Below are positions 565-62,700 of a stretch of DNA of 64,000 nucleotides, one piece after another; position 1 is the first letter of the stretch; the number at the start of each line of letters is the position of its first letter. Both the position numbers and the translations under genes were made by a program. A model generated the notes under the pieces. It was not told where the DNA came from and did not search any database. It was given only the letters and a program-made list of their open reading frames with translations. This DNA comes from Tribonema minus (Eukaryota > Sar > Xanthophyceae > Tribonematales > Tribonemataceae), in NCBI GenBank assembly GCA_017506865.1, contig JAFCMP010000514.1:1116001-1180000 (forward strand). The letters run 5' to 3'.

Positions 565-932
565 GAACGTTTCATGTGCATTCATGTGTGAATTGTGCCT
601 GCCTTGACAAGTTCTCGTTGAAGAGCTTGGTGAAGTCGCTCGACAGCTCCTCCGTCTCCTTCATTTCCATGTCCAGTTCATGTGTCATTGGAATTCATGC
701 ATGAATTCAGCAGTGCTCACCTTTGAACAAACTTTCATACCAAAAAGAGCTTGGTGAAGTCGCGTGGCAGCTCCTCCGTCTCCTGCATCTTCACTAGAAG
801 TTCATTTTGATTTCATGATGAATTCAAGTGTGAATTCAGCAGTGCTCACCTTGAACGAGTTCTCGTTGAAGAGCTTGGTGAAGTCGCGCGGCAGCTCCTT
901 CAGAATTGCTTGGTGATGTTGTCATGCCATAT
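565..932 (-). repeat. Three tandem partial copies of the last visible IFT52 exon edge
   Basis: Copies of the 3' edge of exon 1146-1012 (coding ELPRDFTKLFNEN plus the donor GGTGAGCACTG) recur at about 600-665, 720-790 and 840-905. They are separated by AT-rich linkers containing TGAATTCA. Each keeps the exon-donor junction and decays further away from it. Confidence 0.85.
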
Positions 933-1011
933 TCATGTTTGAATTGAGGGTGCTCACCAGAAGTCCATTTTAATTCATGATGAATTCATGCGTACATTCA
1001 GCCGTGCTCAC

Positions 1012-4000
1012 CTTGAACAAGTTCTCGTTGAAGAGCTTGGTGAAGTCGCGCGGCAGCTCCTCCGTCTCCTGCAGGCAGCAGCGCAGCCTGTCCGCGAGCG
1101 CCTCCGAGTTGGGCACGCGCGTGTACTCGCTGATGTCGTACTCTCGCTGCATTGCTCAGCAGAGGGGGAAAAAAAAAATGGCGTTAAGGGTGTGTGTGTG
1201 ACACCTTCGAGTTGGGCACGCGCGTGTACTCGCTGACGTCGTACTCCCGCTGCAGCGCTCAGCGTAGGGAAAAAAAATGATGTTAAAGTGTGTGTTCTCT
1301 CGATGCATCGCTCAGCGGAGAAGGAAGAAAAATTCTCCCGTTAAGGGTGTGTGACACCTTTGCGTTGGGCATGCATGCGTGTACTCGCTGATGTCATACT
1401 CCCGCAGCAGCGCTCAGCGGAGCAACAACAAACAACGGTGTTCAAGGTGTGCGGAACGGCTTCATATTGAGGGTTAGAAAGCAAATAAATACTTCTGATG
1501 GGGAAGGAGAGTATGCTGTCATGCCAATGACTGGCAGGTACATGCATGGCCAGTGTTAACCATGCAATGCACAGGCTCATAGCGTTTAGAATTGCGTAAA
1601 AGCTGCAGTTCAGACAGTGTACGTAAGTGTTCCTGTAACTGACTGATGCGTACATGACCAGTGCCAATGGGTGCATTACACGACTCCATGGCTTCAGAGG
1701 AGCGTATCAAGTGCTTTTAAAGGAGCTTGTGCTGCCGCGACTGTGACTACCAGACACGCGCAAGGCCAGTGCTAAATGTGCGCAGCTTAGGGTTAGGGTT
1801 AGGGTCGCAGGAAACGCTGCATCGGAAAACATGTGCTGCCACACATGACAACATGAACTCGAAGTGCTACACCATCTGGCCTCATCTGTGGGCTGTGCAG
1901 CCTTTTCCCCAATACGACAGTTCACCGTGTCGAGAGTGCATGCCACCATGCCTCATTCTGGTCCTGCAAAACGTATACTGTGCCGTATCAGTGCTCTCTG
2001 CGGCCCCTATTCGCACCCCCTTGCCATGAACTTCAAAGGCAACTATGACTATTGCCTGCCGACCAGCAGCGTCATGCACATTGGAGTTGAATGCAAGTGA
2101 GGCCTGTGTGCCCAAGGCCAATTGAGGTAAGAGAGGGCGATACGGAGCCTTGTGAACCGAGAGGTTGAAGTACTCTAAGTGCGCTCACCTACTTGATACT
2201 CTGCGTACTGCTAAATTAAACCTTTAGGGGTATTGTCTCTGTTGCCGCTGCAACACTAGTGTTCTTGCTGCTGGCGCTGCAGCATTCTCTGTGTCATGGC
2301 GCACAGAGAACCTTAACAGCATTGGCAGCCAGCGAGTCGCTGGGCAACACACTTCCGCCGTGTGGGTCACATGGAAGTCAACATGCAATGCGTTGAGGAG
2401 GACAGCGCCGCAACTTCAAGTTCAACTGCAACATCAACTTCATGGTACTTGGTCACAGTACTTGACAGCCAATTCCATCGTCCTACACCCGTCAAATGTA
2501 TGATGGGTTAGTCACACTGCTTGACAATACGTGCCAACACGCAGCCAGCGCACCAAGACAACACTGGGTGGAGGGGGATGATGCATCACAAAACTTCAAG
2601 TTGACTTTTGCACTGCGACATGTTCAAGCACAAGCTCAGCGAAGCAGGTCGCACGGGCCGCCTTCGAAGAGTCTTCCCCCCTACTTATGCCAGCAGTGCT
2701 CCCACCCCCTGTCGACGCTCAGTTCCGCCCTGTAGCAGCGCTCACCCGCAAACTCAGCACACTGGCCTACACGCATTGTTGAGCTCAATGACGGGCCTGC
2801 GTTCGACGCATAGCATGTCACACTGCGAACCTACGACATCTATAACTCGCGTACTCCGAGGCGCCAAAGTCTGGCGGCTGCGTCATGTGCCGCTGCTCTA
2901 AGTGAAGAGCAGAGACACCCCAGGATGGCTTTGTTTCTTAGCAGGCACTTCGTGCTCAAGCTACACAGCCGTGCCTGTACGTATTGCTCAGCAGTCAGCG
3001 CTCACACGACACTTGCGGTTGCAGATGAAGCGCGCTTGACGGCTGGGTTTGCCACCACGAAGTACTGTCTTCCGTCTTCTTTCAGTGTCGACCACAGCGC
3101 TCAGCTCTTCCTCCCCCCCCCCCCCCCCCCCCCCCAGGTGTGTGTCAGCGCTCATCTGCAGCTCCGGCCCCACTCACGCCAACAGCCGTGGCAGCTAATT
3201 ATGAGATTGGCACAGCACCAGCCACAGCCCGCCATTGCGCCTTGCAGTGCTGCTCGGTGCATGATCATGCCGAGCACCTCCACTGCTCAACCTGCTGCAA
3301 ACCAGCTCGATAGCTCTCAGGGACCGTACTACCTCGAAGTACGTGGTCGTGTGACAGTGCTCAGACCTCTTCAAGAAGCAAACCATTAAGGAAGATGATT
3401 ACGTAATCTTCCTTATTACGTAGTTGTGTAGCAGCGCTCACCTGCTGGTCCAGCTTGACGCCGCCCTCCCCGAGCAGCCACCGCACCAGCACGTCCCACA
3501 GCTTGCCGTTCTCCTCCTTGTCTATCCACTCGTCGCTGAACATCTCCGTGCTCGCCACCACGAGCAGCCTCCCCGGGCCCCCCTGCCCCTCCGCCTCCCC
3601 TGCCTCGTTCCGTGGACTGGCGCCACCAGCAGCAGCCGCAGTGCTCGCCCCCTCCCCTTTCCTCCCCCCCAAGACTGAGCGCTGCTGCTGCGGCCGCTCC
3701 CACACCGCCGCCAGCGGCCGGTTCAGCGGGTACGAGATGGGGCCGCTGGAGAGGATCGGCTGCGCGGGCGCCTGCACGGTGAGCGACGCTCCGTAGGGGT
3801 AGACGAAGGCGAGGCCGCCGCCGTTCGCGACGTCGTCAGCATCCAGGTCGCGGGATTGGCCCGCGCTGCGCGTGCGGCCCTTGGTCCCGACGCTGCGGCG
3901 GCGGTGGCAGCGGCAGCGGTGAGCGGTGTGATGTGAGGCCATTTCTGGCGCGCTGTAGCAAGTGGAGTACAGCACGTCGACAAGTTCACATGATGCGCGT

Positions 4001-5663
4001 GGTGGGGTGGGCTTGCGCGACTGCCCCGCGCCGCGCGTGCGGCCCGTAGTCCCGACGCTGCTGCGGTGGCGGCGGAGCGGGCAGAGGTCGCGGCTGCAGC
4101 GGCGAGCGCTGTGATGTTGACGCGCTGTACCAAGGGAAATACAAGCCGACGATGAGTTAGCTTGTGCATGGCAGGAACGTGCGCGGCTGCGAACGGCCCC
4201 CTGTGTGCGTGCGGCTCGCTGCTGCTATTGGGGCGGCAGTTGGTGATCGGTGGGAAAGGGCCAGTGCGCTAAAGACTCAACTTAATGCATATGACTGCAC
4301 ATCACTGTACTCTAGTTCATGCTTGTGTGTGCATCTGTATTCTTGGGAAGCCACAAACACGGACAAAAGCCTCCGTGTGCGGCGTAGATGAGGAACAATG
4401 CGCATTGACACCGCCTGCGCGCACACACATACAGCATTATATTATACATACATAAGCCGTGCACCGCGTCCTCAATAAATCCGCTTCCACCGCCCCCATG
4501 CACCACTAACGCACGCGCACGCTCACGCGCACCTGTTCTTCATCCGCGCCAGCTCCGGGTTCAGCACGCCGTGCGACACGAACACCTCCTTCGGGTGCAG
4601 GTACTTGTAGAACGCGGTGCGCACGACGCTGTCCGCGTGCACTGCCACGCCAAACTCCTCCAGCAGGTAGTTGACATTCGTCCCCAGGTGCCCCTCGCCG
4701 CCCTCCGCCAGCAGCACCGCAACGCTGCCGCCGCCGTTGAGGTACGCCTTGATGCTGGCAAACTGCGTGACGCGCGGCGCGGCGCGGGCTGAGATTAGTA
4801 GTTTCATTGTCAACTTCAACTTCAAGGCAGGTGAGCACGCCGCGAGGCGCGGTGCGCGGTGGGTTGCACTCCGCCAGCAGCGCCGCGACGCTGCCGTCGC
4901 CGCCGTTGAGGTACGCATTGATGCTGACGAACTGTGTACATCGCGGCGCGGCGCGGGTTGAGCTTATTGCAGATGAATCAAAAGATCGTAGAGCTGTAGG
5001 TGATGAGGTGTGGTTTATTATTTTGTTGATGCCCGCGCGGCGCAGCGGTAAGGCCAGTGGCGCCGTCTGCTGCGCCTCTCTCTGGCGCAGGCTGTGTACT
5101 CTAGTTGCTTCAACTTCAACTTCAAGGCAGGTGAGCATGGTGAGACGCGGCGCGCGGCAGATTGCGCTGATTACTTTGCACCGCCGACTTCTCCAACTTG
5201 AATGCACGCGTAGGCTGCCGCCCTGCCCGGCAGCAGGAGGTGGCGCGCAAAAGCTTGATGCTTGCCGCCTGCAAGTGCGTCGATGTAAGTAGATGGTGGT
5301 ACAATGCGGCAGGTGCACGGAACGTGCGGCGGTTGACCACAACTTATGTGCAGGGATCGATTGCAGAGTGTAAGCGTGAGACCTGCAGCAGAAGTTGAAA
5401 TGATACACTAACAAATCCGCTAGCACTGGTCTTCACCCTGCATAGTCAATCATTACTCGCTGTGAATCACTCACCTCCTCATTTGAGAACTTCGCGCGCG
5501 GCGAGCCAAATATTATGAGCGATGTCTGCGCCAGCCGCTCATCTGTGATGTCATCCTTGTTGGCGAGCACCTTGTAGGATGTTTTTAACCGCCGCGCCAG
5601 CTTCTTGAAGCCTCCCCCGGGGTGATAGTTCTCCCGTTTCGAGACGTCAAATGTGATTGATTT
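1012..5663 (-). CDS. IFT52: Intraflagellar transport protein 52 (IFT52), partial: 5' exon not found, 3' end off the window
   Basis: IFT52 is a core subunit of the IFT-B complex that carries cargo along cilia and flagella. Four exons are legible: 5663-5475, 4762-4533, 3865-3442 and 1146-1012. They join in phase (978 nt). Family landmarks appear in order: ITFDVSKRENYHPGGGFKKL with FGSPRAKFSNEE; then KAYLNGGGSVAVLLAEGGEG and NVNYLLEEFGVAV, KYLHPKEVFVSHGVLNPEL; then GGLAFVYPYGASLTVQAPA, SSGPISYPLNRPLAAVW and EMFSDEWIDKEENGKLWDVL; then LQETEELPRDFTKLFNENLF. This follows the animal protein closely up to the end of its N-terminal GIFT domain. The start codon must lie in a small exon upstream of 5663 that I could not place, and the C-terminal third lies left of base 1. 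A Gly/Glu-rich insert (about 3560-3690) breaks the conserved block before the EMFSDEW segment. The donors are GTGAGTGATT, GTGCGCGTGA, GTGAGCGCTG and GTGAGCACGG. Confidence 0.93.
1200..1425 (-). repeat. Partial copies of the 5' edge of IFT52 exon 1146-1012
   Basis: Two clear copies of the exon start (coding REYDISEYTRVPNSE with its CTGCAG acceptor and the adjoining CGCTGAGC) lie at about 1203-1262 and 1358-1421. A shorter trace lies near 1293-1315. They sit on the intron side of the acceptor, mirroring the donor-side copies at 565-932. Confidence 0.8.
1788..1806 (+). repeat. Three TTAGGG units in an IFT52 intron
   Basis: TTAGGG three times in a row, with no further units on either side. Confidence 0.85.
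4000..4110 (-). repeat. Partial copy of the 5' edge of IFT52 exon 3865-3442
   Basis: The stretch around 4011-4085 repeats the acceptor side of the exon and its upstream intron found at 3850-3930. The shared core reads GCGTGCGGCCC, followed a few bases on by TCCCGACGCTGC on the plus strand. It is diverged and not open as an exon. Confidence 0.7.
4850..5137 (-). repeat. Partial copy of the 5' edge of IFT52 exon 4762-4533, with AACTTCAACTTCAAGG boundaries
   Basis: About 4865-4945 repeats the exon start (INAYLNGG.GSVAALLAE against IKAYLNGGGSVAVLLAE). CAACTTCAACTTCAAGGCAG followed by GTGAGCA occurs at 4811-4837 and again at 5110-5137, bracketing the copy. A fragment of dispersed repeat B lies between, at about 4965-5015. 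Confidence 0.75.
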
Positions 5664-11125: not shown

Positions 11126-11680
11126 TCAGTCAGATTCGGCAGAGCTGCCGGCGCCGCCGTCGTAGTCCGCGAGCATGAGCTCGCCGTTCACGACGGCGGA
11201 GGTCGTGGCGCCGCCCCTCCTGAAGCTGCGCACCTGTAGCGACAGCAGCAGCAGCGGCGCAGCGGCACACCGCGGTGAGAGGCACACTCAGCACAGCTGA
11301 GCACACCCGTGTTGCGATACTGCGATGCGGCGCTCCAAGTTTCAGGCGAGCAGTCGCAGCGCTGACGGTCCTCGCCGCATGCAAAGCACGCGTTTAGCAA
11401 AGGCAGCGCGGCAGCGATAAGCGGAAACGGAGAGCGCAACAAGGCGTCAGCGCCCCAAGCCAGGGTCTTGCAATGCTGAAAATGGCCCTAACCCTACCCC
11501 TACCCCTAACCCCTAAATAACCCTACCCCTAACCCTAACTCTAAACATCCCGTTTAGCCATCAGGCAGCCGACGATCCTCATTGCACACAGCGCACAGCA
11601 TCAGCGAGCCATCAGCTCAACGGTGGTGGCGCGGCAAATGCCGCACCCGCTGACGACGTGGCCCAGGAGATTGCGCTGAC

Positions 11681-11713
<33 letters not shown>

Positions 11714-12527
11714 ACCTTACCGATGGGCGCAGGGCGCGGAAATGCCCCGTGTGCGCACTGCTCCGACAGGCTGCCAGCAGTGCGCATACCTGCGCCCCCG
11801 CACATATTCGCCGCAGGCCAGCCGCAGGCGTGCCCTGCAGTTCAGACAAACTTCAACTTGCAGAGTGCGCCTGTCTCTCATTCAGCAGCGGCGCGTGCGC
11901 ATGACGCGCGCCGTTCGACGTGCAGAGCGAGCCCCTCTCGCCTTCGACAGCGGCGGGCACGCGTGCGCAACGCACCTGCACGTAGCCTAGTACAGTAGCC
12001 GCCGTTCTTCAGACAAACTTCAACTTGCGGAGCAAGCCTCACTCGCGCGGCGGCGCGCACGCATACCAGACGCGTCTGCGTGTAGGCGCCATTCCTCATA
12101 CAAACTTCAACTCCCTCTCTCATTCAGCAGCGGCGCACATGTGTACCAAACGCACCTGCATGTAGTCGCCGTTGGCCAGGCGCAGGCGCTTCTGGCGGAA
12201 GCCCGTCTTGTCCTTGCTGGCCTCTCCGGGCAGCGTCTCAAACACGAGCGCGGCCTCGTGCGCGGACGCGAACGTCAGCACGGCGCGCCCCGTGGCGGCG
12301 TCCGGCGGGAACGCCGGCTCCTCCACCGTGGCGGGCGCGACGTTGACCTGCAGCGGCGGCGGCGCTTTCAGACTTGAGCGTCATGTGCGCGTCACACACA
12401 CGCACACTCACACACACACCACGCGTGCGCGCGCACACACACGCAAGCGCATCATACGGTGGCGGGCGCGACGTTGGCCTGTGGCGGCGGCGGCGGTCGC
12501 GAGACCGGTGTCATGCGCAGTGTCACA

Positions 12528-12560
<33 letters not shown>

Positions 12561-14702
12561 GCACGCACGCACGTAGGGTGGCCGGCGCCATGTTGACCGG
12601 CAGCGGCGGCGGTCTCGAAAGTGACGTCATGTGCGCGTCACACACACGCGCACACACACACACACGCCTATCTGTATTGGGCGGGCGACGAGGTCCCCGC
12701 TTTCACGCTGCTCCTCGGTGCACGCGCGCTGCCGGCCAATCACCGCTTTCGGCCTAGCGTAGCCTGCCAAGTCATGGTGATGCTCAGCAGGCGTGCTACC
12801 AGCAACCCTAACTTGGATAGTGAGGCAGACGCCACTGCAGCTTGACAGTTGTGATAATTGCGTCTTCATCCTTGATCAACGCGCACTTAGGCCGGACCAC
12901 CGCCTCACCAGCTTTGTGAACGCCGTCGTGAGGTGCGCGGCCTTGATGCCGAGCGGAATGCGGTGGACGAGCAGCTGCGCGCGCATGCCGGCGTTCTTGG
13001 GCTTGCCGCCGCCGCAGCCGCGCTTTATCAGCGGCAGCGCCTCCGCGCCGCGGTCGAGCGCAAACTGCGCCACCTCGAGCGCCGTCACCGCGTCCGTCAC
13101 GGAGCTGTGCGAGCCGGACTGCGCGGCAGGGGGGAGGGGGGGGGGGCGGCGATGATGTCAGAGAAGTGTGCTCTTTCAATCTCATATGCATGCATCATTG
13201 AAGTACAGCACTTCAAGAAGGTATCCTTGCCCGAAGATTCTTTGACCGCCTCAATGTGAATTTATCGAGCGCAAACTGCGCCACCTCGAGCGCCGTCACA
13301 GCGTCCGTCACGGAGCTGTGCGAGCCGGACTGCGCGCAGCAGCGGGGGGGGGGGGGCGTGGCGCGGCCTGAGAGAAGTGTCGTTTTCAGACTCGCATGCA
13401 TCTTTCAAGTACAGCGCTTGATGAGCAGCAGCGTCTGCGCCGCGAATTGCGCCACCTCAAGCGCCGTCACCGCGTCCGTCACGAAGCTGTGCGAGCCGGA
13501 CTGCGCGGCAGCGGGACACGGGGCGACGTCAAAGAAGTGTTTTCTTCAATCTCACATGCATGCATCATTGAAGTACAGCACTTCAAGAAGGTATCTGTGC
13601 CCGAAGGTTTCTTTGACCCTGTGCAAGCCGGACTGCGCAGCGGTGGGGGGGGGGGCGTGGCGCAACGTCAGAGAAGTGTGTGCTTTCAGACTCGCGTGCA
13701 TCTTAGAAGTACAGCGCTTCAAGACGGTATCTTTGCCCGAAGGTTTCTTTGCCCGCCTCGGCGAGAAATTCTTGGTCGAGCGAGGTCGTGCAGGCTGGGT
13801 GTCGCGCCTGACATCAACTTCACAGTGAACAGCAGCAGGTGACGGACCCTCACCTGAATCTCCTTGTCGAGCACCGCCTTCACGAGGTCGCGCAGGCTCG
13901 GCGTCACGCCGGGCATCAACTTCAAGTACCTACTTCAACAGGTGACGGACCCTCACCTGAATCTTCTTATCGAGCACCGCCTTTGCGAGGTTGCGCAGGC
14001 TCGACATCGCGCCCGGTGCCAACTTCAACTACTCACCTCAACAGGTGACACACCGTCACCTGAACCTCCTTGTCGAGCACCACTTTCGCCAGGTCGCGCA
14101 GGCTCGGCGTCACGCCCAGTACCAAATTCAATTACCATTTTAAAAAGGTGACGCACCCCTCACCTGAATCTCCTTGTCGAGCACCGCCTTACGCCAGGTC
14201 ACTCAGACTGGCTGAGCGTGACGCAGGACAACAACTTCAACTACCAACTTCACCAAGGCGACGTCCGTCGCCCCGCCCCCCTCACCTGAATCTCCTTATC
14301 GAGCACCGCCTTTGCAAGGTCGCGCAGGCTCGGCGTCGCGCTCGGCCCCTCCCCCTCGAGCGCGAACAGGAAGCTCGTGTCGACCACGCGCTCGTGCACC
14401 ATCCCCAGCGCCTGCAGGTCGTTGTGCAGCGCGTGCCCCACGAGAACGGTCCCGGGGCAGCACAGGCGCGCGACCGCCGCCTGCGCGTGCGCGAGCGTGA
14501 AGCGGCAGTCGCGCAGGTGCTCCGGCGTGATGCCGTGGCAGCTCGTGCGCATGTCGACGACGCGGCCGCGCGGCGCGACGAGGGTGTCCAGGAGCGGCGT
14601 CCCTGCGCCGTCCACGATGGACATGCGCACGAGCGCCTTGCCGTCGCGTGCGCCCGTCGCGTCGTCGACCGTCTCGCACATCTCGCAGTCGAGCGCGAGG
14701 AC
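11126..14702 (-). CDS. DEDDh 3'-5' exoribonuclease, SDN/REXO5-like (N-terminal exon not found)
   Basis: This enzyme family trims or degrades small RNAs and structured RNA 3' ends. Four exons are read: 14702-14286, 13118-12909, 12347-12156 and 11233-11126, all phase 0 (927 nt), ending at a TGA. Exo motif I is VLALDCEMCETVDD (D and E). Motif II is GHALHNDLQALGM (D), after HGITPEHLRDCRFTLAHAQA. RVVDTSFLF follows, then SLRDLAKAVLDKEIQ. Motif III is SHSSVTDAVTALEVAQFAL, supplying H and D as in the plant HNCLDDA. An RRM-like tail follows: LLVHRIPLGIKAAHLTTAFT, AVLTFASAHEAALVFETLPG, FRQKRLRLANGDYMQVRSF. This domain order (nuclease then RRM) matches plant SDN proteins, with animal REXO5 the alternative. 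Any 5' exon beyond 14702 is hidden among exon copies and telomeric repeats. Confidence 0.88.
11485..11716 (-). repeat. Two short interstitial telomeric blocks
   Basis: CCCTAA/CCCCTA-type units at 11485-11540 and 11681-11716, within the last intron of the exonuclease gene. Confidence 0.85.
11825..12125 (-). repeat. Two tandem copies of an exonuclease exon 3' edge
   Basis: Copies of the NGDYMQ|GTGCGT exon-donor junction (real at 12156) lie at about 12040-12080 and 11930-11985 with decaying frames. Each is followed by ACAAACTTCAACTT (11847, 12014, 12100), so the motif marks each unit boundary. Confidence 0.8.
12360..12680 (-). repeat. Exon 5'-edge copies plus (CA)n microsatellites
   Basis: GGTGGCGGGCGCGACGTTG and variants at about 12461 and 12577 repeat the start of exon 12347-12156 with its acceptor side. 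Each unit is followed on the plus strand by a (CA)n/(CG)n tract (12393-12450, 12522-12570, 12638-12665). The microsatellite was therefore duplicated together with the exon edge. Confidence 0.8.
13255..13640 (-). repeat. Three partial copies of the exonuclease motif-III exon
   Basis: The start of exon 13118-12909 (SGSHSSVTDAVTALEVAQFAL and its acceptor) recurs at about 13265-13342 and 13437-13512. A remnant lies at 13618-13640. Each is preceded on the coding strand by a C-rich tract (plus-strand G runs at 13130-13147, 13345-13357 and 13645-13656). The first two copies encode the catalytic H and D intact. Confidence 0.88.
13838..14200 (-). repeat. Four tandem copies of the nuclease exon 3' edge
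   Basis: The end of exon 14702-14286 (TPSLRDLAKAVLDKEIQ|GTGAGG) is repeated at about 13853-13910, 13956-14010, 14060-14115 and 14163-14200. The spacing is near 105 bases. Linkers contain AACTTCAA or close variants. Confidence 0.9.
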
Positions 14703-15563
14703 CTGCGCGGGGGGCACGCGGCAGGAGGGCGGTGGTGAGCAGCCTGGATACGATACGTGCGACGAGGAATTCCTTTGCGTGCACGCAGCGCCCTCTTTTG
14801 TACAGGAGAACGCGGCGTCGTCGACTGTATCGCGCATCTCGCAGTTGAGCACGAGGGCCGCGGGCATGCGGACAGCGCAGCACAGCCGGGCGACGTCACG
14901 CGCGAGCGCAGATTGTCTGCAACACGCGCACAGAGCAAGATTCTTGCGTGCACGAGGTTCCGTGTGCTTGAGTTCGCTGGGCGCCTCGCCGGTGGACCCT
15001 AACCCTACCCCTAACCCTAACCCCAATCCTAATGTTCACGGGCTATGCTGAACCCCCTACCTTTAACCCTAAGTCCCTGCAACCGCCCGCAAGAGGCATG
15101 ATCCTGACGCATTGCAAGCGTCGCCGCACTCAATGAAAAATGTGCGACCGCGCGTATCGCGCTGTGTGCAGTCCGTTGTGTCAAATGAATGACTGCGTGC
15201 TGATGAGTTGGTTGCGTCGTAGGACTGAAGTGCAGCCATTGGACATCGCTGAGTGCACCACGTGCCGCTAAAGGACGGTGATGCAATGTGCAAATGGCAG
15301 TGAAGTTCTCACAAACCTCTGAGTATGACGTTGTATCGCTCTTGTGCAGCTGGCCGAGTAGGTTAAGGGTTAGGGTTAGGCGTAGGGCTGCGTTGGAGTT
15401 GGCACCCCTAAGACGCATGCAGCGACAGAGCTGCTGTCACATGGAGCATGCCACAGCGCTCGACATAGGTGCGCTCGATCACGTGTCACATGCCGCATGG
15501 CTCAGTGAGAGGAGTTGAGGTCTGCAGAACTGCATGCAGCCGCACACGTCTCATCCTCGGCAT
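14703..15563. other. Exonuclease upstream region: one exon-start copy and telomeric repeats
   Basis: A copy of the nuclease exon start (ALVLNCEMRDTVDDA) lies at about 14800-14870. CCCTAA-type repeats occur at 14996-15031 and TTAGGG-type at 15360-15380. The missing first exon of the exonuclease could be here but I cannot identify it. Nothing else is seen. Confidence 0.5.
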
Positions 15564-18332: not shown

Positions 18333-19262
18333 GTGGGGGCCACGGGCTTGAGCAGCCACCACTCTGCTCGGGCCCGGACTCCGTCTCGGACTTGGCGCAC
18401 GCGTCTATCGCAGACGCAGCCAATGGGTCGGGCGGGGGCCCCATTTGTTAGTGGAAATCATGTACATAGGCATATAGCCCACACGAAGGAGCACCACCGT
18501 ATTGATGGCGCGGGCAACAGCCGTGAAAACCAGTCGCCGCGGCCCACCAGGGCCCGCAAGCCGTCCGCGAAAGCGCTTGCTGCCGATGATGATGCTGCAG
18601 CCGCCGCCGATGCTGATGCGGCAGCCCCTTCTGCCTCCACTAAGAAGCGCCCCAAGGTTGCTGGCGGGGGGAAGCGAAGTGAGAAGCGCCCCAAGGCAGC
18701 TGGCGGGGGGAAGCGAAATGCAGCGTCGTCAACAGCTGCGGCAGCTGCACGCGGCGGCGGCAGCGGCGGCGGGCTGAGCGGCGGCAGCGGCGTGGGGGCG
18801 GGCGCCGCAGTGTGGAGGGGCAGGGGGCAGTCGACGGGGGAGCAGCAGGTCGCAGGTACCACAGGGGGGGCAGTCACACGGTGTCATTCGTGGATGCACT
18901 TGTGTGCTTGCTCGTTGTGAGGGTTTTGCAGCTGAGGCTACCAGGCAGCGGTCACAATGCAATTGTGTCTGGATTTGCGTTGCCGGCGCGTGACTCCGGG
19001 CTTGTGCCGCATGCGCACCGCCGCAGCACAAGTTTGCTGGCGGCAACTTCAACTTCAACTGCTCGCGCTGCTGCTCTGTCGTGCCGTGCGCGCAGTCAAG
19101 GCCAGCGACAGCGACCACGACGACGCCTTTGAACCGCCGCCGGGCGAACACAAGCGCGGCAGCGGCGCGGGCGGCGGCGGCGGCAAAAGTGGCACACACA
19201 AGCGCAGCGGCATTTGTCGTGGAGGAGGCAAAGCTCCTCAAGTTCACGCGCCGCTTCCCTGA
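18333..19262 (+). CDS. Tentative basic low-complexity (nuclear?) protein
   Basis: I do not recognise this gene. A frame ending at 18855 with donor GTACCA joins in phase to 19096-19262 (acceptor GCGCAG). It gives a basic, Gly/Ala-rich product: TKKRPKVAGGGKRSEKRPKA and AGGGKR, then VKASDSDHDDAFEPPPGEHK and a Gly/Lys end. KKRPKVAGGGKRS is an imperfect in-frame 39-base tandem duplication (18641-18718). Lys/Arg-Pro clusters resemble linker-histone or AT-hook tails, but no domain is present. The start is unsure: the first 50 residues from 18333 look non-coding and the real start may be nearer 18420-18530, or in an upstream exon. The gene may not be real. Confidence 0.35.
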
Positions 19263-23508: not shown

Positions 23509-23543
<35 letters not shown>

Positions 23544-31289: not shown

Positions 31290-31402
31290 CTTTTGATTAA
31301 TTCTCGCTCAGGGCGCGAAAAAGCCCAGATGATTCTAACTTGATGCTGCTGTACAGAATCTGCATGTCGTGTGACAGTCTGAAAGTGTCTCAACGACAAC
31401 CA
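31290..31402 (+). repeat. Dispersed repeat A, copy 1
   Basis: It begins ATTAATTCTCGCTCAGGGCG and ends TGAAAGTGTCTCAACGACAA. It shares most positions with copies at 31581-31695 and 51627-51735. GGGC...GCCC near the start could form a small hairpin. Length is about 110 bases and no coding is seen. Confidence 0.85.
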
Positions 31403-31574
31403 CTCAAACGCCGCCGCCGCCAAAAGCCATCTCGGGATCCTCCCCTACGTCCTCCTCCATGTGCCCCCCCCCCCCCCTCGATTCTGCCATGTGTGTCATG
31501 ACACGGCCAGAGTACGCCATGTGGAGCGCTGCCGTCGGTGCCGAGCGTAAGCGCGCCAGGGCAATGCCCTGAGT

Positions 31575-31695
31575 ACCTTTTATTAATTCTCGCTCAGGGC
31601 GCGAAAACGCCCGGATGAATGGCATCTAACTCGAAGCTTGCTTTACCGAATCGACATGTCGTGCGACAGTCTGAAAGTGTCTCAATGACAACTTC
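31575..31695 (+). repeat. Dispersed repeat A, copy 2
   Basis: Same ends as copy 1, with more substitutions and a short insertion near 31617-31625. It lies in direct orientation 280 bases from copy 1. Confidence 0.85.
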
Positions 31696-46000: not shown

Positions 46001-48147
46001 AGCAGCCCAGGCTCAGAGCCCCCAGATGTGACGTGCAGCCCGTCTTTTCTTGTGCGAAAAAACATTCTCACAAAGGTTGCGCGCTACTTGAATGAATGCC
46101 ATTGTCTAGTCTAACCGATTTTGGACCACATTTTCAGTTCGGCTGTTTGGCTGTCTCAGGAGGTGGTATAGGATCTGATTGCGGAGACCCTGGACAATGC
46201 AAAACTTAACCCTAAACCTAACCTAACCCTAACCCTAAGGTGCCTCCACCCAACAAGGGCGGTGTGGGGATCTAATCAGGGGACCCTATGGAGGCAGGGG
46301 GTGGATGCGGCGGTCTTATTAGCGCGTTTTCAAGAGGAAGACATGATCAATTCATAATGATCTGGTCATGAATGTGATATGATCATCGTGAGCTGATCAT
46401 GATGGGAAAAAAATTAAAGGTGGTGAAGTTCTAGATGGCAAGGCGTGGCTAGCCGTCAAATTGAATGCCTTCTATCAATAACCGCGGTTGCCGCTGCTGC
46501 GGCAACTGGCCATGAGTCAAACAGTGCCATCATATCCACGGTAGTCAAAAGACTTTTGTGTGCGAGCTTTCAGCATTTGAAGCATGAATGTCATCAATGT
46601 CATCTGTTAGGACTGTTAGCTGATCGTAATGATGAGCTAGCTGATCATGACAATGACCGCGGCCTGATCCAAATCATGAACTGTGAGCTTATCACAATCA
46701 CGAACGTGATTGACCATGTCCGTGACCTGAATCACGACCTATCTGTGAAAACGCAGGTGGTGGACCTCAAGGATGACGACTCATGACCGCGGCCTGCTCA
46801 AACATGAATTGAAACTTGATCGCAATCATGGATATGACCTGATTTATGACCTCTTTTAAATCAACTCAGGTGGCGGACCTGCTCAAGGATGATAAATCAC
46901 GACCGCGCCCCTACTTCAATCATCAATTGCAAGCTGATCACAATCATGAACTTGACCTGATTCATGAACTCTTTTGAATGACACTCAGGTGGTGGACCTG
47001 CTGAAGGACCTCCCGGACCTCACTGTGGACCCCCTGGAGGGCTGCGTGAAGCCCGGCGCGGCGCTCGTTGCCAAGATCACCGACAACCTGGAGAACTACT
47101 ACACCAACATCCACACCACAGCGTTCCCTGCCGGTAAGTTGTAGAATCACAAACTCCAAGTCATCAAATTGAAGTACATTCTCACCACGGCGTACCCCGC
47201 CGGTGAGTCGTAATCGCAAACTTGAAGTTACCAAATTGAGTTGCGCTGATCACCAAGATGATTGGCAAGATCACCGACAACTTGGAGAACTACCACACCA
47301 ACATCCACACCACGGCATTCCCCGCCGGTGAGTTGTAATCACAAAATTGAAATTATCAAATTAAAGTACATCCACAACACAGCATACCTCGCTGATGAGA
47401 GACGTTCTTGTCAGTGGTAGTAGTTTGATAAACTTGAAGTTGGTAATTTGAAGTTCATTCGCACCTCGGCGTACCCCGCTGGTGAGTGACATCTGCGTCA
47501 ACTGTGGCATGTAATTACAAGCTTTTCGTCATCAAATTCAAGTTATCAAATTGATGTGCATCCATACCACGGCGTCCCCCACCGGCGAGTGGTGTCTGCG
47601 TCAGGTGTGGCATCACACTGGAAGTTTTCAATTTCAGTTCACCCACATTGCCTGTGCATGCATCGGCGCACCACCTCCTTCTGCTTTGCCATGGCCGTGC
47701 GCTGCTTCATGAGGCGAGAGCACAGCACACCCTGCCGGCGGCAGATGAGTTTCAAGTGCTAGTGCGAGGTTTCCCTGTTGACGATGTCGACCTGCTGCAT
47801 GCATGCGGCACTCGCAGAACGGGCTACAGGGGGGGGACAGTGGCAGCTGTGGCGAGCCGTCTGTCTGCTTGACTGCCAACGATACAGCTGAGGTGGATCC
47901 GCGCAGCAACTCAAATGAAAGATTGCGAGTGCCTTCGCGGTGTGTTCTTTCCTTACGCTCATCAGAAAACGGGGGTGATCCTGCCCCTCCCCACCGCCCC
48001 CTGGCACACGCACGGCGCACACACACGCCCATGACCTCATCCATTATCATGATTCCAGAGAAGTGATCTCGCTTCACCGCATTGTGTTGTGAATTTGCCT
48101 GCCGACTTGCCCACCACGCAGGTGCTATCCGCGGCCAGGCCCTGTAA
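43043..48147 (+). CDS. CHRD-domain protein 2 (secreted, start exon not found)
   Basis: The exons are 43043-43205, 45617-45755, 46989-47133 and 48122-48147. The two middle exons are 139 and 145 nt, exactly the sizes in CHRD1, with the same phases. Reading: SKCLALACLAAGVAAETMAP and SVAPSAMPSMAPSNAP (hydrophobic leader then APS-type repeats), QALVIEMDGAQEVDGGAPDG, QGTATFTLKD, TMCFSITTNQMDIEMGHIHE, GAVGVDGPVVVDLLKDLPDL, then NLENYYTNIHTTAFPAGGAI and RGQAL before TAA. This is a complete CHRD domain. The initiator Met is not visible; a pure-C tract and CAG precede 43043, so a short upstream exon is expected. Likely role: a secreted or cell-surface beta-sandwich protein, perhaps in the cell covering, which is inference from the leader. 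Confidence 0.87.
43330..44040 (+). repeat. Five copies of CHRD2 first-exon 3' edge
   Basis: The coding MQALVIEMDGAQEVDG with its GGGTGAG donor region recurs at about 43350-43410, 43505-43572, 43660-43735, 43845-43925 and 43980-44035. Spacing is about 150 bases and each linker carries CAGTTACAGTT(G/A)CAGACA. Some donors changed from GGTGAG to GGCGAG. The copy near 43880 is interrupted by a fragment of dispersed repeat B. Confidence 0.92.
44122..44170 (-). repeat. Dispersed repeat A, fragment
   Basis: Reverse-strand head of repeat A (TTTAATCTCGCTCAGGGCGC on the minus strand). Only about 45 bases are recognisable. Confidence 0.65.
44420..44510 (-). repeat. Dispersed repeat B, head fragment
   Basis: The minus strand reads AAGATCGTAGAGCTCTAGGT then GACAAGG, matching the head of repeat B at 58340 and 63145. 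Confidence 0.7.
45085..45520 (+). repeat. Three copies of CHRD2 second-exon 5' edge
   Basis: The exon start GAPDGQGTATFTLKDA recurs at about 45100-45140 (remnant), 45225-45292 and 45437-45510. The last is almost identical to the real start at 45617, including GTGCGCAG before it. In the copies the exon text runs on into AACTTCAACTTGAAGTGTC in place of the real exon sequence. Confidence 0.9.
45895..46022 (+). repeat. Direct repeat of about 62 bases in CHRD2 intron
   Basis: Two imperfect units each contain ATGATAACATCGCGCC or ATGATTACATCGCGCC and end CAGAGCCCCCA. Confidence 0.7.
46205..46242 (-). repeat. Interstitial telomeric repeat, C-rich strand
   Basis: About five degenerate CCCTAA units in CHRD2 intron 2. 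Confidence 0.8.
46340..46985 (+). repeat. CHRD2 third-exon 5'-edge copies in a TGATCA-rich tract, with repeat B
   Basis: Two copies of the acceptor and VVDLLKDD-like exon start lie at about 46753-46785 and 46868-46905. Between them runs a tract dense in TGATCA, ATCATGAAC and TCATGACC palindromes. A full copy of dispersed repeat B lies at 46436-46575. Confidence 0.75.
47140..47595 (+). repeat. Five copies of CHRD2 third-exon 3' edge
   Basis: NIHTTAFPAG|GTGAGT-type edges recur at about 47170-47210, 47238-47335 (long copy including ALITKMIGKITDNLENYHTN), 47365-47400, 47455-47490 and 47552-47592. Linkers carry AAATTGAAGT. Confidence 0.9.
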
Positions 48148-50724: not shown

Positions 50725-53700
50725 ATGCGAGGTCTTGCGACAGCAGCCGTCTTATGCCTGGCGTCAGGACTCGAAGGCGAGCAGCTGCTGCAGCGGCGAT
50801 TGCCTCCGAATGCCGACGAGGTCTGCAAGCAGGCACCTGAGGCACCCGAGATCAAGAAGGTCACCACTGGGTGCGTTCAGATCACGTGCAAAGTGAGTGA
50901 GTCAGGCATTGCATGCTGTGAGTTGATCGTTGCAAGCGTCCTGCATTGCCGTTGCCTGCTGCAGCCAACGGTGTAACCGTGATGACGACATGCAACGGCT
51001 CCCTGTCTATGAATGGCGACAGCATCTGACTCTTCCGACCCAGTCCGAGGGAAGATGGACATACAATTCCCCACCTTATGGGTGAGGTACATCAGAGGAT
51101 ACCAGTGCATTGCGTTAATCTTTCAAGAGGACTCTCTCACATTGCATCCAGTGGAGAGCCTGCTGAATCCACACACTGTCAGCCAGCATCAGTTCAGCGC
51201 GTCGCTGTTGGCCCTTACGCCAGTATTATATATTGCTGCGCCCCTTGCACCAGCAGTTTTGCTGGTCGCGTTCGTGGCGCCGTCACGTTTCTTGCAGCGC
51301 TGCAGCAGCGTCGCCATACGCGCATATGCAAATTCTGCGGCTCTTTCTTTCCTGATTGTCCTCCCCTTCTTGTGTTTCCTCTTTCTTTTCAGCCCGACGC
51401 CATAGGCATAGGCGAGCCGTACCACTTGACGGCCAGGTGGTGTGTGGACATGCCGCGGCCGCTGTACGTCCGGTACGACATCATCAACACAAAGACAAAG
51501 GTGACTCTGATTTTTCTCAAAGACAATTGCTGCCGGTCTGTGCCTGCTGGCTGTCCAGTGCGACTGGTCTGTGTGTACATGCAAAAACACAAGTGCAACA
51601 AATAACAAACATGCATGTACTTTGTATTAATTCTCGCTCAGGGCGCGAAAAAGCCCAGATGATGGTCTAACTTGATGCTGCTGTACGGAATCTACGTGTC
51701 GTGTGACTTCTGAAAGTGCCTCAACGACAACAACATGCATGTGCTACTTAGAAGTCAACCGCACTCCTGGGCGCGTTGCAGTCGCGTTGGGCCTGAGAGC
51801 GCAAGCGATCCAGCACAATGGACCACTTAGGTGTGCTCTTCACCTTGGACAAGATGCATCTCACTTACATTTGCTTGAGAGGCGGCAACCCCACGCGACA
51901 TGCAAGATAGGCAGCTCCCACGCTCGTGTACTGCGTGCCTTCGTACGCTCAGCTGACACGCGGGCACAATGTAGCCGTTGCACAGTCGCCCTATCACCTG
52001 CATAGCACAATTGCACTTCACATCTTGCTCTCATCGCAGTAAAAGTCGACCAACTCCCGGCCGCGTCGCAGCCACGCTAGGCCTGAGAACACAAGCGGCG
52101 TGGCATATCTTGTATGCTCTTCAACATGTTATTCATACTTCAATGTAGGAAAAAATCATGTAGCACAGTCACCCGGTCACCTGCAGCGGCACACTTGCAC
52201 TGCGTTACGCGCGCATTGCGCTTGCATCTGACCCCACGCGCCTGACCGCATGCCGCGCCCTCCCCTGCGCAGGAGCTCATCAGCACTGTTGACCACATGG
52301 TCGCGGGCGAAGACGCCAATCACCAGTGCGGCGAGCACACGTTCGAGCAGAAGTTCGACCCCGCATATCCTGCCGGCGCGGGCGGCGGACCCGCCGTTCT
52401 GACGCCGTATAACTTCGCGCACATTGTAAGAGCGCGCGTGATGGAAACTTTGCTGCATGTGTGCGCCGAGGCGCCGTCAATGCGACGCTGCCTTTATTAC
52501 TAGTGTTGACATGAGTTTTGGCGACTGGGCGCACCACAGTGTGATTCACACGCACGCCGTGTAAATATGTCGGGTGTTTCATACCAATGTTACTGCTTAT
52601 ATTGATGCAAGACGTCCCAGAGATCCATCACCAATCTTCTCGCGCTTGCAAGAATACATTCCCTGCTGCGTCTGCAACAGATGTTCCCTGGCAAGTTTAC
52701 AGCCTCATATGCGCAGCATTGAAATTCCCACGGCCCGCTAGCTTTCACCCCTTGGTTTGCCTTGCTCTTTCAAGCAAATGTACTACCCCCCCTCGTCCCC
52801 CCTACATTCAGCTCTCACCCCGCCCATGATCCCCCTTGATTCTTCAGTCAAGTTGACCTCCCCCCCCCCCCCCCCCCTGCCCCCCCTCAACTCCCTTCAA
52901 CTCGCTTCCCGCCCAGGTCTACGCCGCCCCCGTCTGGGGCGACCCCGCGCAGCCCGACGGCTACGTCGAAGACGCATTCCCCAACGTCCTGGGCAAATCT
53001 CACCCCCCCTTGAACCCCCTTGATTTTTCATTTACACTGAACCCCCCTCTGTTACCCCTCCCCTCTATTCAACTTGCGTCCGCTCAGGTCTACGGTTGAG
53101 TTGACCCCCCCCACCCACCCCACCCTTGCCCCCCCCCATTCCCTTCAACTCGCTTCCCGCTCAGGTCTACGCCGCCCCCGTCTGGGGTGACCCCACGCAG
53201 CCCGACGGCTACGTGGAAGACGCATTCCCCAACATCCTGGCGCAAGACGTGTTCTTCTTCGCAGATTACGGTGGCGCCACCGAGGGCGACTGCAATGCGG
53301 TCCCAGACCGTTCCTGGGACGTTCTTGAACCGGTCCCGGGACTGGGCGCCGCCGCCGACGCCGGGGTCAAGAACGTCGACGCCATTAACTTCCCGGCCGT
53401 GCCGGACTGCATCACCCCCGGGGAAAACTGGGACTTGAAGGTGGGGTAGGCATCTACTTTAAGTTATGTTGGTTCAGTAGGGCGAGCGAGCTCGATGACA
53501 CGTGCGCAGGGAGCCTCCCCCTGCTGCACGTGCCGCAGAAAGTGCGGCTGTGGGGCTAGGGTCAAGGCACCTCATCCAGTGTTTGGTGCATACCAGAGCG
53601 TGCTTGGCGCCAGTCAGGTCTGCCCCCGCACCACCGTCTTGAAGTTCAGCAGTTGAAGTCCAGAAGTTGCTCGTCGTGCAGCCAGAGTAACGTGGCAGCG

Positions 53701-56700
53701 CACAACGCGCCCCCGTGTGTCACGGCAGCGACCCTGCGCACGCGTGAACGCACCCTGCAGCAGCGCTTAAATTGCGTGTGCTCACCGCTCCGCGCAGTCC
53801 TGACAGATGTGGGGTAGGTATTGTGAGGTGCTGGTACTTGAACTTCACTCACGCTGCGACACCGCCTCGTTCACTTGGAGTGCCTTGTCAATGCGCCTCA
53901 ACGCTGCTTGCGGCACTGCAATTCAAAAAGCCGACATCGCTTACCTTTATCGTCGTCATGGCCTGATCCAATTCAGCAGCGCTCGACGTGGCGGGCGCCG
54001 ACGCATGCGCGCCCTCCACGGTGGCGCAGAGAGATTTGATCATTTACGTTCATGAAACTCACCCCACACATACACCCTCCATCCGTGACCCAACGTAGGA
54101 GCGCCTTGACATGTTCGAGTTGAAGTTTTCATGGGCACTGTGACGCGTCAGCAATCCCTGCAGTGTGCGTGGAAGGACCCTGTCGCGATCGGTCGCACAG
54201 CGTGCCTCAAAGAGAGCTTGAGGCTATCGTCCAAGCTAGCATACCTACTCCGCATCATGGCAGGCTCCACATTGTCAGACGCTCCAGCAATGCCCACCCC
54301 TATGTGGTTGGCTGTAGAACATACATATTACATCGCAGTATATACATAAGCGTCTTGTTGATGAGCACACATACATGCGCCGTTGCAATGCGTGGCCACC
54401 TCTCCTTCGAGCCCTTAGCACAGCTCAGAGGTACAAGGGTTCCGGTCACAAATCGCGTCCCTCGGCCGCAGCACGGCTCAGTCGCACGGTTGCAGCACGG
54501 CTCAGATAGACCTGCTGAGCACTGCCCAATTTACACGACAAACGCCCAGCACCGTCCCCCCCTTGTACGAGACGCCAACGCATTCAAGCTAACAAGGCCT
54601 GTGGCTTCTTCCTAAAACCTCCGCTTGTGGGCGAGCACTCGACAACGACAACAAGTACAACGTGAAGTATGATATTGAGGTATGTGTTGAAGTTACCAGG
54701 ACTGATGATGTTGAGGTATGATGTTGAGGTACAATGTTTGAGTTGCAATGACAAGCCCCTGTGCTGCCTTGCCCGCGCTCTGACAGGTGCAAGCGCACGT
54801 CGCCAGCCTGCCCGCCGCCGACTTGCACGTTAATTTGCAGCTCGGCACGGGGCCCAACGGCTACCTAGGCGCCAAGGACGCATACGTCGCAGGTGCGACA
54901 TCCTCTATTTGAATGTTGGCGCAGTCGCACTACAGTAGCACTAGGGAACGAGACTAGAATTGCGTCATGCACTATAGATTAGGGGCATTGCCGGTGGGGC
55001 TCCACATAGAGGACCATTTGCGCTACGTGCGATTGCGCCACTTGCGCTTGCGTTGCGCTGCCCGCGCTTGCGCCACCTGCGCTTGCGTTGCTTGAGCTTG
55101 TACTACCTGCGCTTGCGCTACGGCACCTGCGCTTCATGCGCTGTGCCGCTGAGGGGGCGTCGCGTGCTGCGCAGAGCACAGTGCAGCCATCGATACGCCT
55201 GCTGCACGAGATGGGATGCTCAAGCGCCAGCACACAAAGGGTTAGGGTTCGGGTTAGGGTTAGGGTTAGGGTTAGGGTTAGGGTTAGGGTTAGGGTTAGG
55301 GTTAGGGTTAGGGTCAGGGTTAGGGTTAGGTTCTAAAGAAGCCACCGACGAGCAGCTGTATGTTTGCATCACACCTTCAGTAATGACTTGGCGGCCTTTG
55401 TTGATGATATTCACTGGAGATGGAAACAAAGCTTGGCGCACAGCGTTCATGGCGGCTATATGCACTCCTGACGTGTGCTGTGTAGCAAAGCGCCAAGCTG
55501 CTTTAACGGTCAGGGGCCAGGGTCGGTTGTCTACGTCCTCTTGCACGCGGGAGCCAGCGCATTTGGAACGAATGGATGTACTCTGGAGTAGTACACGGCA
55601 TTGTGTACTACTCCGAACACAAGCGGCAGTCGCACATATGGCTTCATAGCATTAGAATGAAGTACATGATGACAAAATCGTGCCTAATATCTCCAAGACG
55701 GCATCGCGTCGGAGGCACCGAAGCTTAACTTTCAAGTGGTGGATTAGACTAGACCAGCAGGGCATACGTGGCCCTGATGCCAGTGGGACATGTTACACTT
55801 TATGCTGTGAGAATGTTCCTAGGTAGTGCGTTTGTGTCATGACAACATTTGTAGTATTACGTCATGGTTGCACCGTCAGTGCCTGCCGCGCATGCGGCGA
55901 GCGACACCCGGGGTACAGCCTTGTCACACTGGAAAAACAGACACATAAAACGGCAATGTCTTTCAGACTGAAGACGACCCCATTTGTCCCTTACTTCAAA
56001 ATCACGATACTCTACTTCATCATTTCCCAGTCAGCACGGCTCTCACAAGCCCCCCCCCCCCCCCCCCAATCCCCCCTCCCCCAGAGGCCAACGCCTTCGG
56101 CCTCAAGAAGGCAGCACCAGACGCCACCCCCGACGACGCCGCCTACTGGGACAACGTCGTCTCCGGCTTCTCGCCGCTGCAGACGCGCAACCTCAAGGCG
56201 GGTGACACTCCCTACATCGTCGCGTTTCTGGTGCCGCCGGGCAGCGAGTACGACGCCACGATACCGGGCGGCTGGAAGACGCTCGCCAAGGAGTATTACC
56301 TGTCGCTCGAGCTGTGCGACGCCGCCGCCGACGACGATCCCGCTGGTGCGTATATACTTCAAACTTGAAGTGCGTATGATCTTGAAGCACGTAGAATGTT
56401 GAAGTATAATGTATGATGTGTTCTTAAAATGTCGAAGTCCCCGGCGGCTGGAGAAGACGCTCGCCAAGCAGTACCACCTGTCGCTGATGCTGTGCGACGC
56501 CGCCGCCGCCGCCGCCGTCGAGCCCGCCGCTGGTGCGTCGACATCATTTTATTTTGAAAGTGGAAGTGTCGATGCTTTGAGGCGTGTATACTTTTAAATT
56601 TTGATTGCTTTACAATTAATCATCTTTTCACGGCAGCTGACAGCGTTCAGACTGTGCAGCACTGTGCTGCACAGGTGCCCATGTCACATGCTCTTTGCAC

Positions 56701-60797: not shown

Positions 60798-62389
60798 TTA
60801 TTCCCGTGATTGCGGCCCAAAGTCCATGTGCCTCAAAGCCCCGTCGCCTTCATCGCCCCACCCGTCGTCGCCACCCCCCTCCCAGTCCCCCACCCCCCTA
60901 GATTCCACGCGTGGCTGAAAATCAGAACTTGCATCGTCTGGCGCCGCGTAAGCGAGAGCGGAATCTTCCAGAAAGCGCTTGTTTGCGCCGCCCGACCCCT
61001 CGCGCAGCCCCCTCTCGAGCCGCGACAGCAGCAGCGGCAGCTCGCCCGCCAGCGCGGCGCGGCAGGGGGAGACGCGCCCCCCCTCCCCCTCCCCCTCCCC
61101 CTCGCGCTGAGCGCTGCTGCTTCCCCGCAGAACATGCGGAGCGCTGCTGCTGCCCTCTGCCGCGTGCTGCGCGCTGCTGAAGTCCGGCACAGCGCGTCGC
61201 GCGCCGCCGCCGCCGCCGCCGCGCCGCGCGCTGCTGCCGCCGCCGTCCAGCGACGGCGACGGCGGCGCCGTGTTCCCCCTCTGCTGCGCGCCGTGATGGA
61301 ACCGCTCCCCTCCCAAGGAGGGTGACAACGGCAGCGCCGCCGCCGCTGCCGCTGCTGCGCCCCTTTCGAAGAGCGCCGCCGCAGAGGAGCCGTCATCTGC
61401 AGCGCCGCCGCCGCCGCCGCCGCCAGCAGCAGCGGCGGCAGCTGCGCCGCAGAGTGTGCGCTCGAGGTCGGACTGCGCGCGGCGGTGCTGCTCCAGCAGC
61501 GCTCGACGCGCGCCGCGCGCAGCGTCGACGCGCGCGAGGTCTGCCTCTGCCGCTGCCCTGCGGCGGCGCTCCGCGGCGAGGTCGCGCAGCGCGCGCTCGC
61601 AGCGGTGCGCCGCCGCGGCGCTGCGCAGGGGCGTCAGGCGGGGGGGGGGCGATCAGTCCATGTGCGCATCTGGACACTTTTCAAAAGCATCAGGGGGCGG
61701 CAGGCTGGGAGCGTGCGTACTTGTGCTGCAGCCCCGCGAGAGCACCTGCGCCACGGCTAATCTTCCGCGCGCGCGCGAAGGTGAGCTGTTTCGCGGGCGC
61801 GAAACCTGGACCGCGCGACACGCCGTTGTCGCTGCCACCGCTGCTGCGCCGCACACAAGTCCTGCGAACGCTGCCGGCGAGCACGCTGCCGCCTGCGTCA
61901 CCGCCTGGGTAAACGCGTTGCACTGCACTCAGAGCCATGTAATGCAATGCGCCTCTTCTGTGGAAAGCACGGTCACAGCAGCACTTGACCCTCCCAGCCG
62001 CACCTCGAGCAGGCCCAGAGAATCAGCCTCAACGTACTATGTGAAGCATCCAACACAAGCGCCGTGCACTATTGTAGTCTCGGCGTGACGCACCGTTCGC
62101 GCCGCTCCTGCGCCAGCAGCGCTCGGCAGTCGCCGTCGCCGCCGCCGCCCTCCTGCCGCTCGTGGGCGCGAAACGGCCACGCCGCGTCCCCGTCCCCCCT
62201 CCCCCCCCCACGACACTGACTGTCGCCATCGCCAACGGTGTCGATGGCAGCGTCCGCGGCGGCATCGCTGCCGCCGCCGCCGCCGCCGCAGGTGCACGCG
62301 GAGGAGACGGAGAGGGTGAGCTCGCGGCGGCGCTCGCGCTCGCGCGCGAGGCACTCGTCCCTGTCCCTCTGCGCCCTGCGCACGTAGAT
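60798..62389 (-). CDS. Coiled-coil, Gly/Ala-rich protein, 5' part not found
   Basis: Function unknown. Exons 62389-62094 and 61620-60798 join at CG|C. They read IYVRRAQRDRDECLARERER, RRELTLSVSS, then a Gly/Asp linker, ALLAQERRERRAAAAHRCER, ALRDLAAERRRRAAAEADLA, RVDAARGARRALLEQHRRAQ, SDLERTL. Heptad-like charge and Leu/Ala spacing support a coiled coil of at least 70 residues. The rest is Gly/Ser/Arg-rich with three SSSA(P/Q) patches, ending in an acidic, Trp-containing tail (GDWEGGGDDGWGDEGDGA) and a stop. The upstream exon(s) should lie right of 62389 but I could not read one. The intron has a GTGCGTCACG donor and a GCGCAG acceptor. Confidence 0.6.
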
Positions 62390-62514
62390 CTGTACGGTGC
62401 AGCGCGGCGCGGCGGAGGCGGCAGCAGCGCAAAGGACGATCGCGGTGAGCGGCGGCGCGGCGTTCACGTGCTGCTATCCAGAGTTGTTCAAAAACGACAT
62501 GGGGGTTGGGGTTA

Positions 62515-62700
62515 AACTTCTGCTGCGGTTCAGGCACGGCACTCGTCCCTGTCCCTCTGCGCCCTGCGCACGCAGATCTGCGCAGCGCGGCGCGGCGGAG
62601 GCGACGCGAAGGGTAATTGCGGTGAGCGGCGCGGCTCCACGTGCGCTGAGCTCTGCTGCAGTTCAGAGTTGCTCTGAAAAGGTGCTCAGCAGCTGATGTA
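62515..62700 (-). repeat. Copy of the coiled-coil exon 5' edge and its upstream intron
   Basis: About 62531-62660 repeats 62345-62475: CCCTGTCCCTCTGCGCCCTG, CGCAGATCTG, GCGCGGCGCGGCGGAGGCG, then GGTGAGCGGCG. The copy carries the exon start (VRRAQRDRDEC on the minus strand) and 60-80 bases of the intron end. Confidence 0.85.

Follow-up and report, generated by a model that had tools for sequence, protein, structure and literature searches.

What process fills introns with degraded copies of the exon edges that border them? The question is raised by a 64 kb stretch of DNA from Tribonema minus (contig JAFCMP010000514.1, positions 1,116,001 to 1,180,000), referred to here as the window, with about 60% GC in most bins. 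A preliminary description of the window had reported about 50 such copies in the introns of all seven long-intron genes and proposed that exon-intron junctions are duplicated locally and repeatedly, lengthening the introns, a proposal that is well supported within the window. Eight multi-exon genes were modelled: IFT52, an RNase T-type exonuclease (EXO), a C2H2-like gene (ZNF), MYB, CHRD1, CHRD2, a secreted-type gene (SECR) and a coiled-coil-type gene (CC), together giving 25 exons and 45 splice junctions (23 donors and 22 acceptors). The models are hand-drawn predictions that rest on reading frames, phase continuity, codon scores and splice dinucleotides. Joined models matched Pfam for IFT52 (4e-86), the exonuclease (5e-05), MYB (three repeats, 1e-41) and the two CHRD genes (1e-17 and 4e-14); the same scan, which did not cover ZNF, gave no match for SECR or CC.

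Copies of exon edges at splice junctions

Same-strand copies of an exon's own edge occur in the adjoining intron at 20 of the 45 junctions. A strict call, in which the copy ends no more than 3 nt from the splice site, gives 43 copies at 19 junctions (terminal introns included), and a looser call (no more than 9 nt) adds the SECR donor at 56345; unanchored matches were left out. A further match under the looser call, at acceptor 25837, is alanine-rich and of low identity and is treated as a doubtful 21st array outside the array count. The total of 46 copies, this doubtful one included, is close to the earlier figure. The exon part of the copies has per-array medians of 20 to 82 nt (mean 51), and the mean divergence between copy and live edge is about 13%.

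When the 17 complete introns were scanned against both bordering exon edges, 38 direct matches (scores 16-58) were found in 11 of them and a single match in reverse complement. The 95th percentile score for shuffled introns was 11-16, and the largest score from any single shuffle, 24, came from an intron without copies. In self-comparison, too, most of the local direct repeats fell at the edges of exons, in agreement with the preliminary description. In these 17 introns donor copies lie downstream of the donor and acceptor copies upstream of the acceptor, also as described; any tandem duplication across a junction would give this arrangement, which therefore adds no evidence of its own. The splice dinucleotide, said to be part of each copy, is kept in 33 of 38 copies and lost in the rest. 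The neutral estimate is 0.76, or about 29 copies, and we judge the difference not significant.

The focus on junctions is also seen in 60-bp tiles scored for a local copy (score at least 24; 50 exon edges, five of which are outer ends and not splice junctions). A local direct copy was found for 184 of 624 tiles lying on the intron side of an exon edge and no more than 600 bp away, for 14 of 93 deeper in introns and for 20 of 794 in unmodelled DNA (these 20 include outer parts of terminal arrays); inverted local copies numbered 0 of 624 on the intron side and 7 of 794 in unmodelled DNA. Local direct repeats cover 6570 of 18542 bp of intron (35%) versus 248 of 19107 bp (1.3%) in seven control spans without gene models, which were chosen by us and leave out three further repeats (33279-33401, 51749-52097 and 62798-63031). 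None of the seven edges at start or stop codons has copies (two-sided Fisher p 0.033, with the doubtful 21st array counted). The contrast in repeat cover and the absence of copies at coding ends indicate that neither a border between coding and noncoding sequence nor a location outside exons is sufficient and that status as a splice junction matters.

The 20 arrays are given below by coordinates, strand and content.

470..1073 (-), IFT52 donor array: live exon end 1012; three copies, one short of the final 19 nt of its exon part
1101..1451 (-), IFT52 acceptor array: live exon start 1146; two scored copies; AG is kept in the nearer and replaced by TG in the farther
3850..4218 (-), IFT52 acceptor array: live exon start 3892; one copy, use of which would keep the frame open, unlike that of the other 37 tested
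4700..5168 (-), IFT52 acceptor array: live exon start 4762; one copy and a repeat of the intron part
11800..12165 (-), EXO donor array: live exon end 12156; weak, no exon copy scoring above 19; 77% identity over a 53-bp repeat
12325..12667 (-), EXO acceptor array: live exon start 12347; one scored copy (20), with more repeats around GT-rich tracts
13054..13770 (-), EXO acceptor array: live exon start 13118; two scored copies and a decayed unit
13780..14346 (-), EXO donor array: live exon end 14286; four junction copies and one truncated; abuts the acceptor array
14659..14859 (-), EXO acceptor array: live exon start 14702; one copy
26074..27458 (+), MYB donor array: live GC donor after 26150; five strong copies, one partial and one doubtful, with short decayed units; multi-unit duplication
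27806..28301 (+), MYB donor array: live donor after 27863; three copies of 98, 86 and 76% identity
34118..34467 (-), CHRD2 acceptor array: live exon start 34170; two to three copies, the two scored to the junction having lost AG
34469..34921 (-), CHRD2 donor array: live exon end 34872; four copies; abuts the acceptor array
43113..44043 (+), CHRD1 donor array: live exon end 43205; five to six copies
45145..45664 (+), CHRD1 acceptor array: live exon start 45617; one strong scored copy and an older one seen by self-comparison
46655..47008 (+), CHRD1 acceptor array: live exon start 46989; one short copy (score 16) and a repeat of the intron part at 78%
47068..47628 (+), CHRD1 donor array: live exon end 47133; three scored copies and partial ones by eye
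52841..53240 (+), SECR acceptor array: live exon start 53165; one copy spanning 81 nt of exon
56264..56514 (+), SECR donor copy: live exon end 56345; one copy, final 9 exon nt unaligned
62350..62631 (-), CC acceptor array: live exon start 62389; one copy

Best scores of 16-20 mark three arrays as weak (EXO 12156, EXO 12347 and CHRD1 46989). The two introns EXO 13119-14285 (98% repeat) and CHRD2 34171-34871 (96%) owe this repeat content to a donor array that meets an acceptor array. The donor at MYB 26150 (+) is the only GC donor among the 23, and its strong copies are also GC; in Emiliania huxleyi, by comparison, 56% of junctions in hand-curated genes are GC-AG (PMC4028052).

By gene, copies are present at 4/8 junctions in IFT52, 5/6 in EXO, 0/5 in ZNF, 2/5 in MYB, 4/5 in CHRD1, 2/5 in CHRD2, 2/8 in SECR and 1/3 in CC. 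The pattern is not universal: 25 of the 45 junctions, all five of ZNF among them, are free of it. Between the CHRD paralogues 83 of 143 aligned residues are identical and five junction positions correspond by alignment; array presence differs at four of the five. Donor 1, acceptor 2 and donor 3 carry arrays in CHRD1 only, donor 2 in CHRD2 only and acceptor 3 in both, so that array presence changes within the age of the paralogue pair.

Fate of the copies and order of duplication

Substitutions between live edges and copies fall on codon positions 1, 2 and 3 in the numbers 84, 75 and 172, a ratio of 2.16 (array bootstrap 1.89-2.45). A ratio near 2 is, by our reckoning, the expectation for copies that drift freely beside a live exon that changes mostly at synonymous sites. 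Where changes could be polarised, in arrays with at least two copies, those private to a copy are spread evenly (50/39/45), and those on the live branch fall mainly on third positions (2/1/8; p 0.018): the copies evolve neutrally and the outer exon is constrained. Frameshifting indels occur in 18 of the 46 copies, and of 38 inner sites, 37 could not serve to extend the exon without disrupting the reading frame or introducing a stop. Judged from these patterns, the copies look dead and the live exon edge constrained, and the frames together with the codon positions suggest that the functional sites are the outermost ones.

The copies also carry some order. The nearer copy is the more similar to the live edge in 39 of 55 within-array pairs, which are not independent of one another; the decay with distance reported earlier thus holds as a tendency and not as a strict rule. 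Differences between copies fall on the three codon positions as 172/144/231, a ratio of 1.46 (bootstrap 1.18-1.69 over 10 arrays), and such a third-position excess is as expected if the live edge was copied at different times while it was evolving.

Probable recurrent junction duplication and competing explanations

The arrays are probably the product of recurrent short tandem duplication of segments spanning live splice junctions; the outermost site would remain in use and introns would lengthen inward. A unit of about 70-250 bp that spans a live junction would be duplicated in tandem, repeatedly; the outermost copy and its exon would continue as the working splice site, while the inner duplicate would become intron and decay. 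Events at both donors and acceptors would make an intron grow inward from its two ends and leave partly ordered layers of old exon edges. The use of the outermost pair of sites, if correct, suggests that exons are recognized as wholes (exon definition). The DNA step may be fill-in and end joining at staggered breaks (PMC8355091), and the bias towards junctions may arise from something tied to active splice junctions, for which transcription- or splicing-linked breaks, exon-edge chromatin and a TTGAAG-type hotspot motif are candidates. More tentatively, active junctions may be the target of a transcription- or splicing-coupled process that recurrently copies successive states of the live edge into the intron, in which case introns in this lineage would be largely built in this way and would preserve a legible, layered record of the past of their exons.

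Several observations weigh against recurrent duplication of live junctions. Besides the 25 junctions without copies, local repeats are wholly absent from five of the 17 complete introns, and tandem repeats away from junctions are present at 31289-31701, 33279-33401, 35443-35769, 45904-46024, 51749-52097 and 62798-63031. Changes on the live branch total only 11. The excess of third-position differences between copies comes mostly from the MYB array (89/68/122) and is absent from the CHRD2 donor array (12/16/12) and the IFT52 arrays, the pairs again being non-independent. At least one MYB duplication spanned several dead units, so that the live edge is not the sole source of copies. Joins between units could be placed with an overlap within 10 nt in only 3 of 16 arrays (-9, -6 and -3, none above zero), breakpoints being mostly ambiguous. 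The gene models were drawn, and the control spans chosen, by ourselves, and the account does not by itself explain the preference for junctions.

A general tendency to short tandem duplication everywhere, with events in exons purged and the survivors left in introns and, by geometry, at junctions, would account for the orientation, side and anchoring of the copies by no special process, and a few intergenic tandem repeats do exist. It predicts equal densities in intergenic DNA and deep introns, whereas cover is 1.3% in the control spans against 35% in introns, 20 of 794 unmodelled tiles contrast with 184 of 624 on the intron side and coding ends have no copies in seven cases; in its plain, uniform form it is rejected on the tile counts, repeat cover and coding-end edges, and we consider the explanation improbable. 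The lack of copies at coding ends and the presence of exon and intron sides in each copy would also follow if fragments of unspliced RNA at splice sites were reverse transcribed and patched into nearby DNA. We regard this as very unlikely: head-to-tail adjacency and common unit boundaries are the outcome of plain tandem duplication of DNA, and neither a reverse transcriptase nor an RNA-specific mark turned up, although no dedicated search for them was made.

The copies might instead serve in RNA, as tandem alternative exons or recursive splice sites. Dinucleotide retention slightly above the neutral estimate, an IFT52 copy at 1249-1205 in which 45 nt lie in frame between AG and GT (by eye) and the open frame left by the copy at IFT52 3892 speak for such a role. 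The even spread of private changes over codon positions, the frameshifts and the inner sites that break the frame or add a stop speak against it, and a role of the copies in RNA is accordingly hard to credit; coding alternative exons are rejected for want of coding constraint and because of the broken frames. That the arrays are errors of assembly or sequencing is extremely improbable. The copies differ from the live edge by about 13% on average, with a codon-position pattern that errors would not produce.

The remaining candidate is a local hotspot, a TTGAAG / ACTTCAA motif, often near-palindromic, that would lie near donors and at unit breakpoints and trigger breaks or template switching. 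It occurs window-wide, mainly in introns, with the following examples.

4813-4825, 5107-5125, 19046-19058, 45271-45285 and 36045-36062: TTGAAG / ACTTCAA motif

Sites resembling TTGAAGTTGAAGT number 34, with 0.64 expected; TTGAAG or CTTCAA is found 64 times (46+18) in 18542 bp of intron against six times (1+5) in 9038 bp of exon, and near-palindromic motif pairs number 11 and 10 against 0.4 and 0.5 in block shuffles. Eight of 19 arrays have the motif next to their first copy (0.195 expected, p 0.02; 11 of 19 counting any copy), and it is present at 7 of 9 donors with arrays versus 4 of 14 without (p 0.036). Acceptors show no such difference (6 of 12 with arrays and 6 of 10 without, the doubtful acceptor counted; overall p 0.24), and some motif-bearing junctions, such as CHRD1 45755 and CHRD2 36070, lack an array. 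Breakpoint extents vary with the ends of the alignments, and the motif count is inflated by the arrays themselves. Only one of four settings of the orientation tests was nominally below 0.05 on counts (0.045), the rest giving 0.18-0.36; with orientation this marginal, a pairing of donor-side TTGAAG with acceptor-side CTTCAA was rejected as a firm claim. A motif-driven hotspot is thus possible but doubtful, and TTGAAG is a weak lead to the cause of the junction bias.

Known systems and biological meaning

The preliminary description knew of no named mechanism with this signature, which goes too far. The closest precedent is the potato RdRp gene, in which one tandem genomic duplication across an intron-exon boundary created a new intron through a cryptic donor (PMC4974935). 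Both cases share an acceptor-type segment that joins an intron tail to an exon head and includes the branch site, the pyrimidine tract and AG, and the arrays consist of direct, adjacent copies with the exon and intron sides of one junction. The potato case is a single event; here 20 junctions are involved, donors as well, with up to about seven copies, and existing introns lengthen. The IFT52 acceptor copy at 1205-1249 (-) has, by eye, a 45-nt in-frame stretch that may be a mini-exon like that of potato.

Rogers-type intron gain also involves tandem duplication with splice signals: duplication of an AGGT-bearing exonic segment would leave an intron that starts with a copy of the downstream exon and ends with one of the upstream exon (PMC4974935). 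It is rejected here since, in the 17 complete introns, upstream-exon tails lie near donors and downstream-exon heads near acceptors. Introner elements, as in Amoebophrya, resemble the arrays as a recurrent repeat structure in protist introns; they are a dispersed set of related introns that carry terminal inverted repeats and are bounded by direct repeats of 3-5 nt (PMC7789003). Each array, unlike these, is private to its own junction and includes as much as about 100 nt of the exon it adjoins; self-comparison pairs array repeats within their own array, and what is common between introns is the short TTGAAG motif and a few dispersed repeats distinct from the arrays. Local inverted copies are rare in the tiles, no dedicated search for introner-type inverted repeats at intron ends having been made. 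For the DNA step, staggered breaks with fill-in by Pol alpha-primase/CST and end joining yield small tandem duplications (PMC8355091) that are likewise direct and tandem and need no long homology; those duplications, as described, are mainly below 100 bp and have no link to splice junctions. Among the matches listed from the open-licence literature, none gives an account of recurrent junction arrays built from both intron ends. Recurrence and junction bias are what seems new.

The window has other features as well. Two small dispersed repeat families of 78-90% identity, unrelated to the arrays, lie at 31281-31403, 31575-31701 and 51611-51734 and at 58348-58468, 63151-63271 and 46466-46591. Interstitial TTAGGG / CCCTAA arrays occur at 55238-55330, 46202-46238, 11486-11544 and 22477-22530, two in SECR and ZNF introns and one in CHRD1. 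A cytochrome b5-desaturase-type gene is predicted at 39030-40719 (+), with a change of frame at about 40.2-40.3 kb that may be a short intron or a frameshift. Rfam and tRNA searches of the window gave no matches, and no IFT52 relative was confirmed in bacterial and archaeal genome contigs. Motif-pattern scans of viral contigs gave 3, 0 and 38 loci; their GC content, motif density and telomere repeats and one stretch of a single locus were viewed, and no conclusion was drawn.

Intron lengthening by means other than transposons is poorly documented, and in these genes the source of the added sequence can be identified and the events are recurrent. Dead copies beside a live, selected exon form a built-in clock. 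The arrays also pose a question of splicing, namely how a spliceosome would pass over several near-identical sites in favour of the outermost two, and this opens exon definition in a protist to test. A splicing-linked mutator, if true, would be new.

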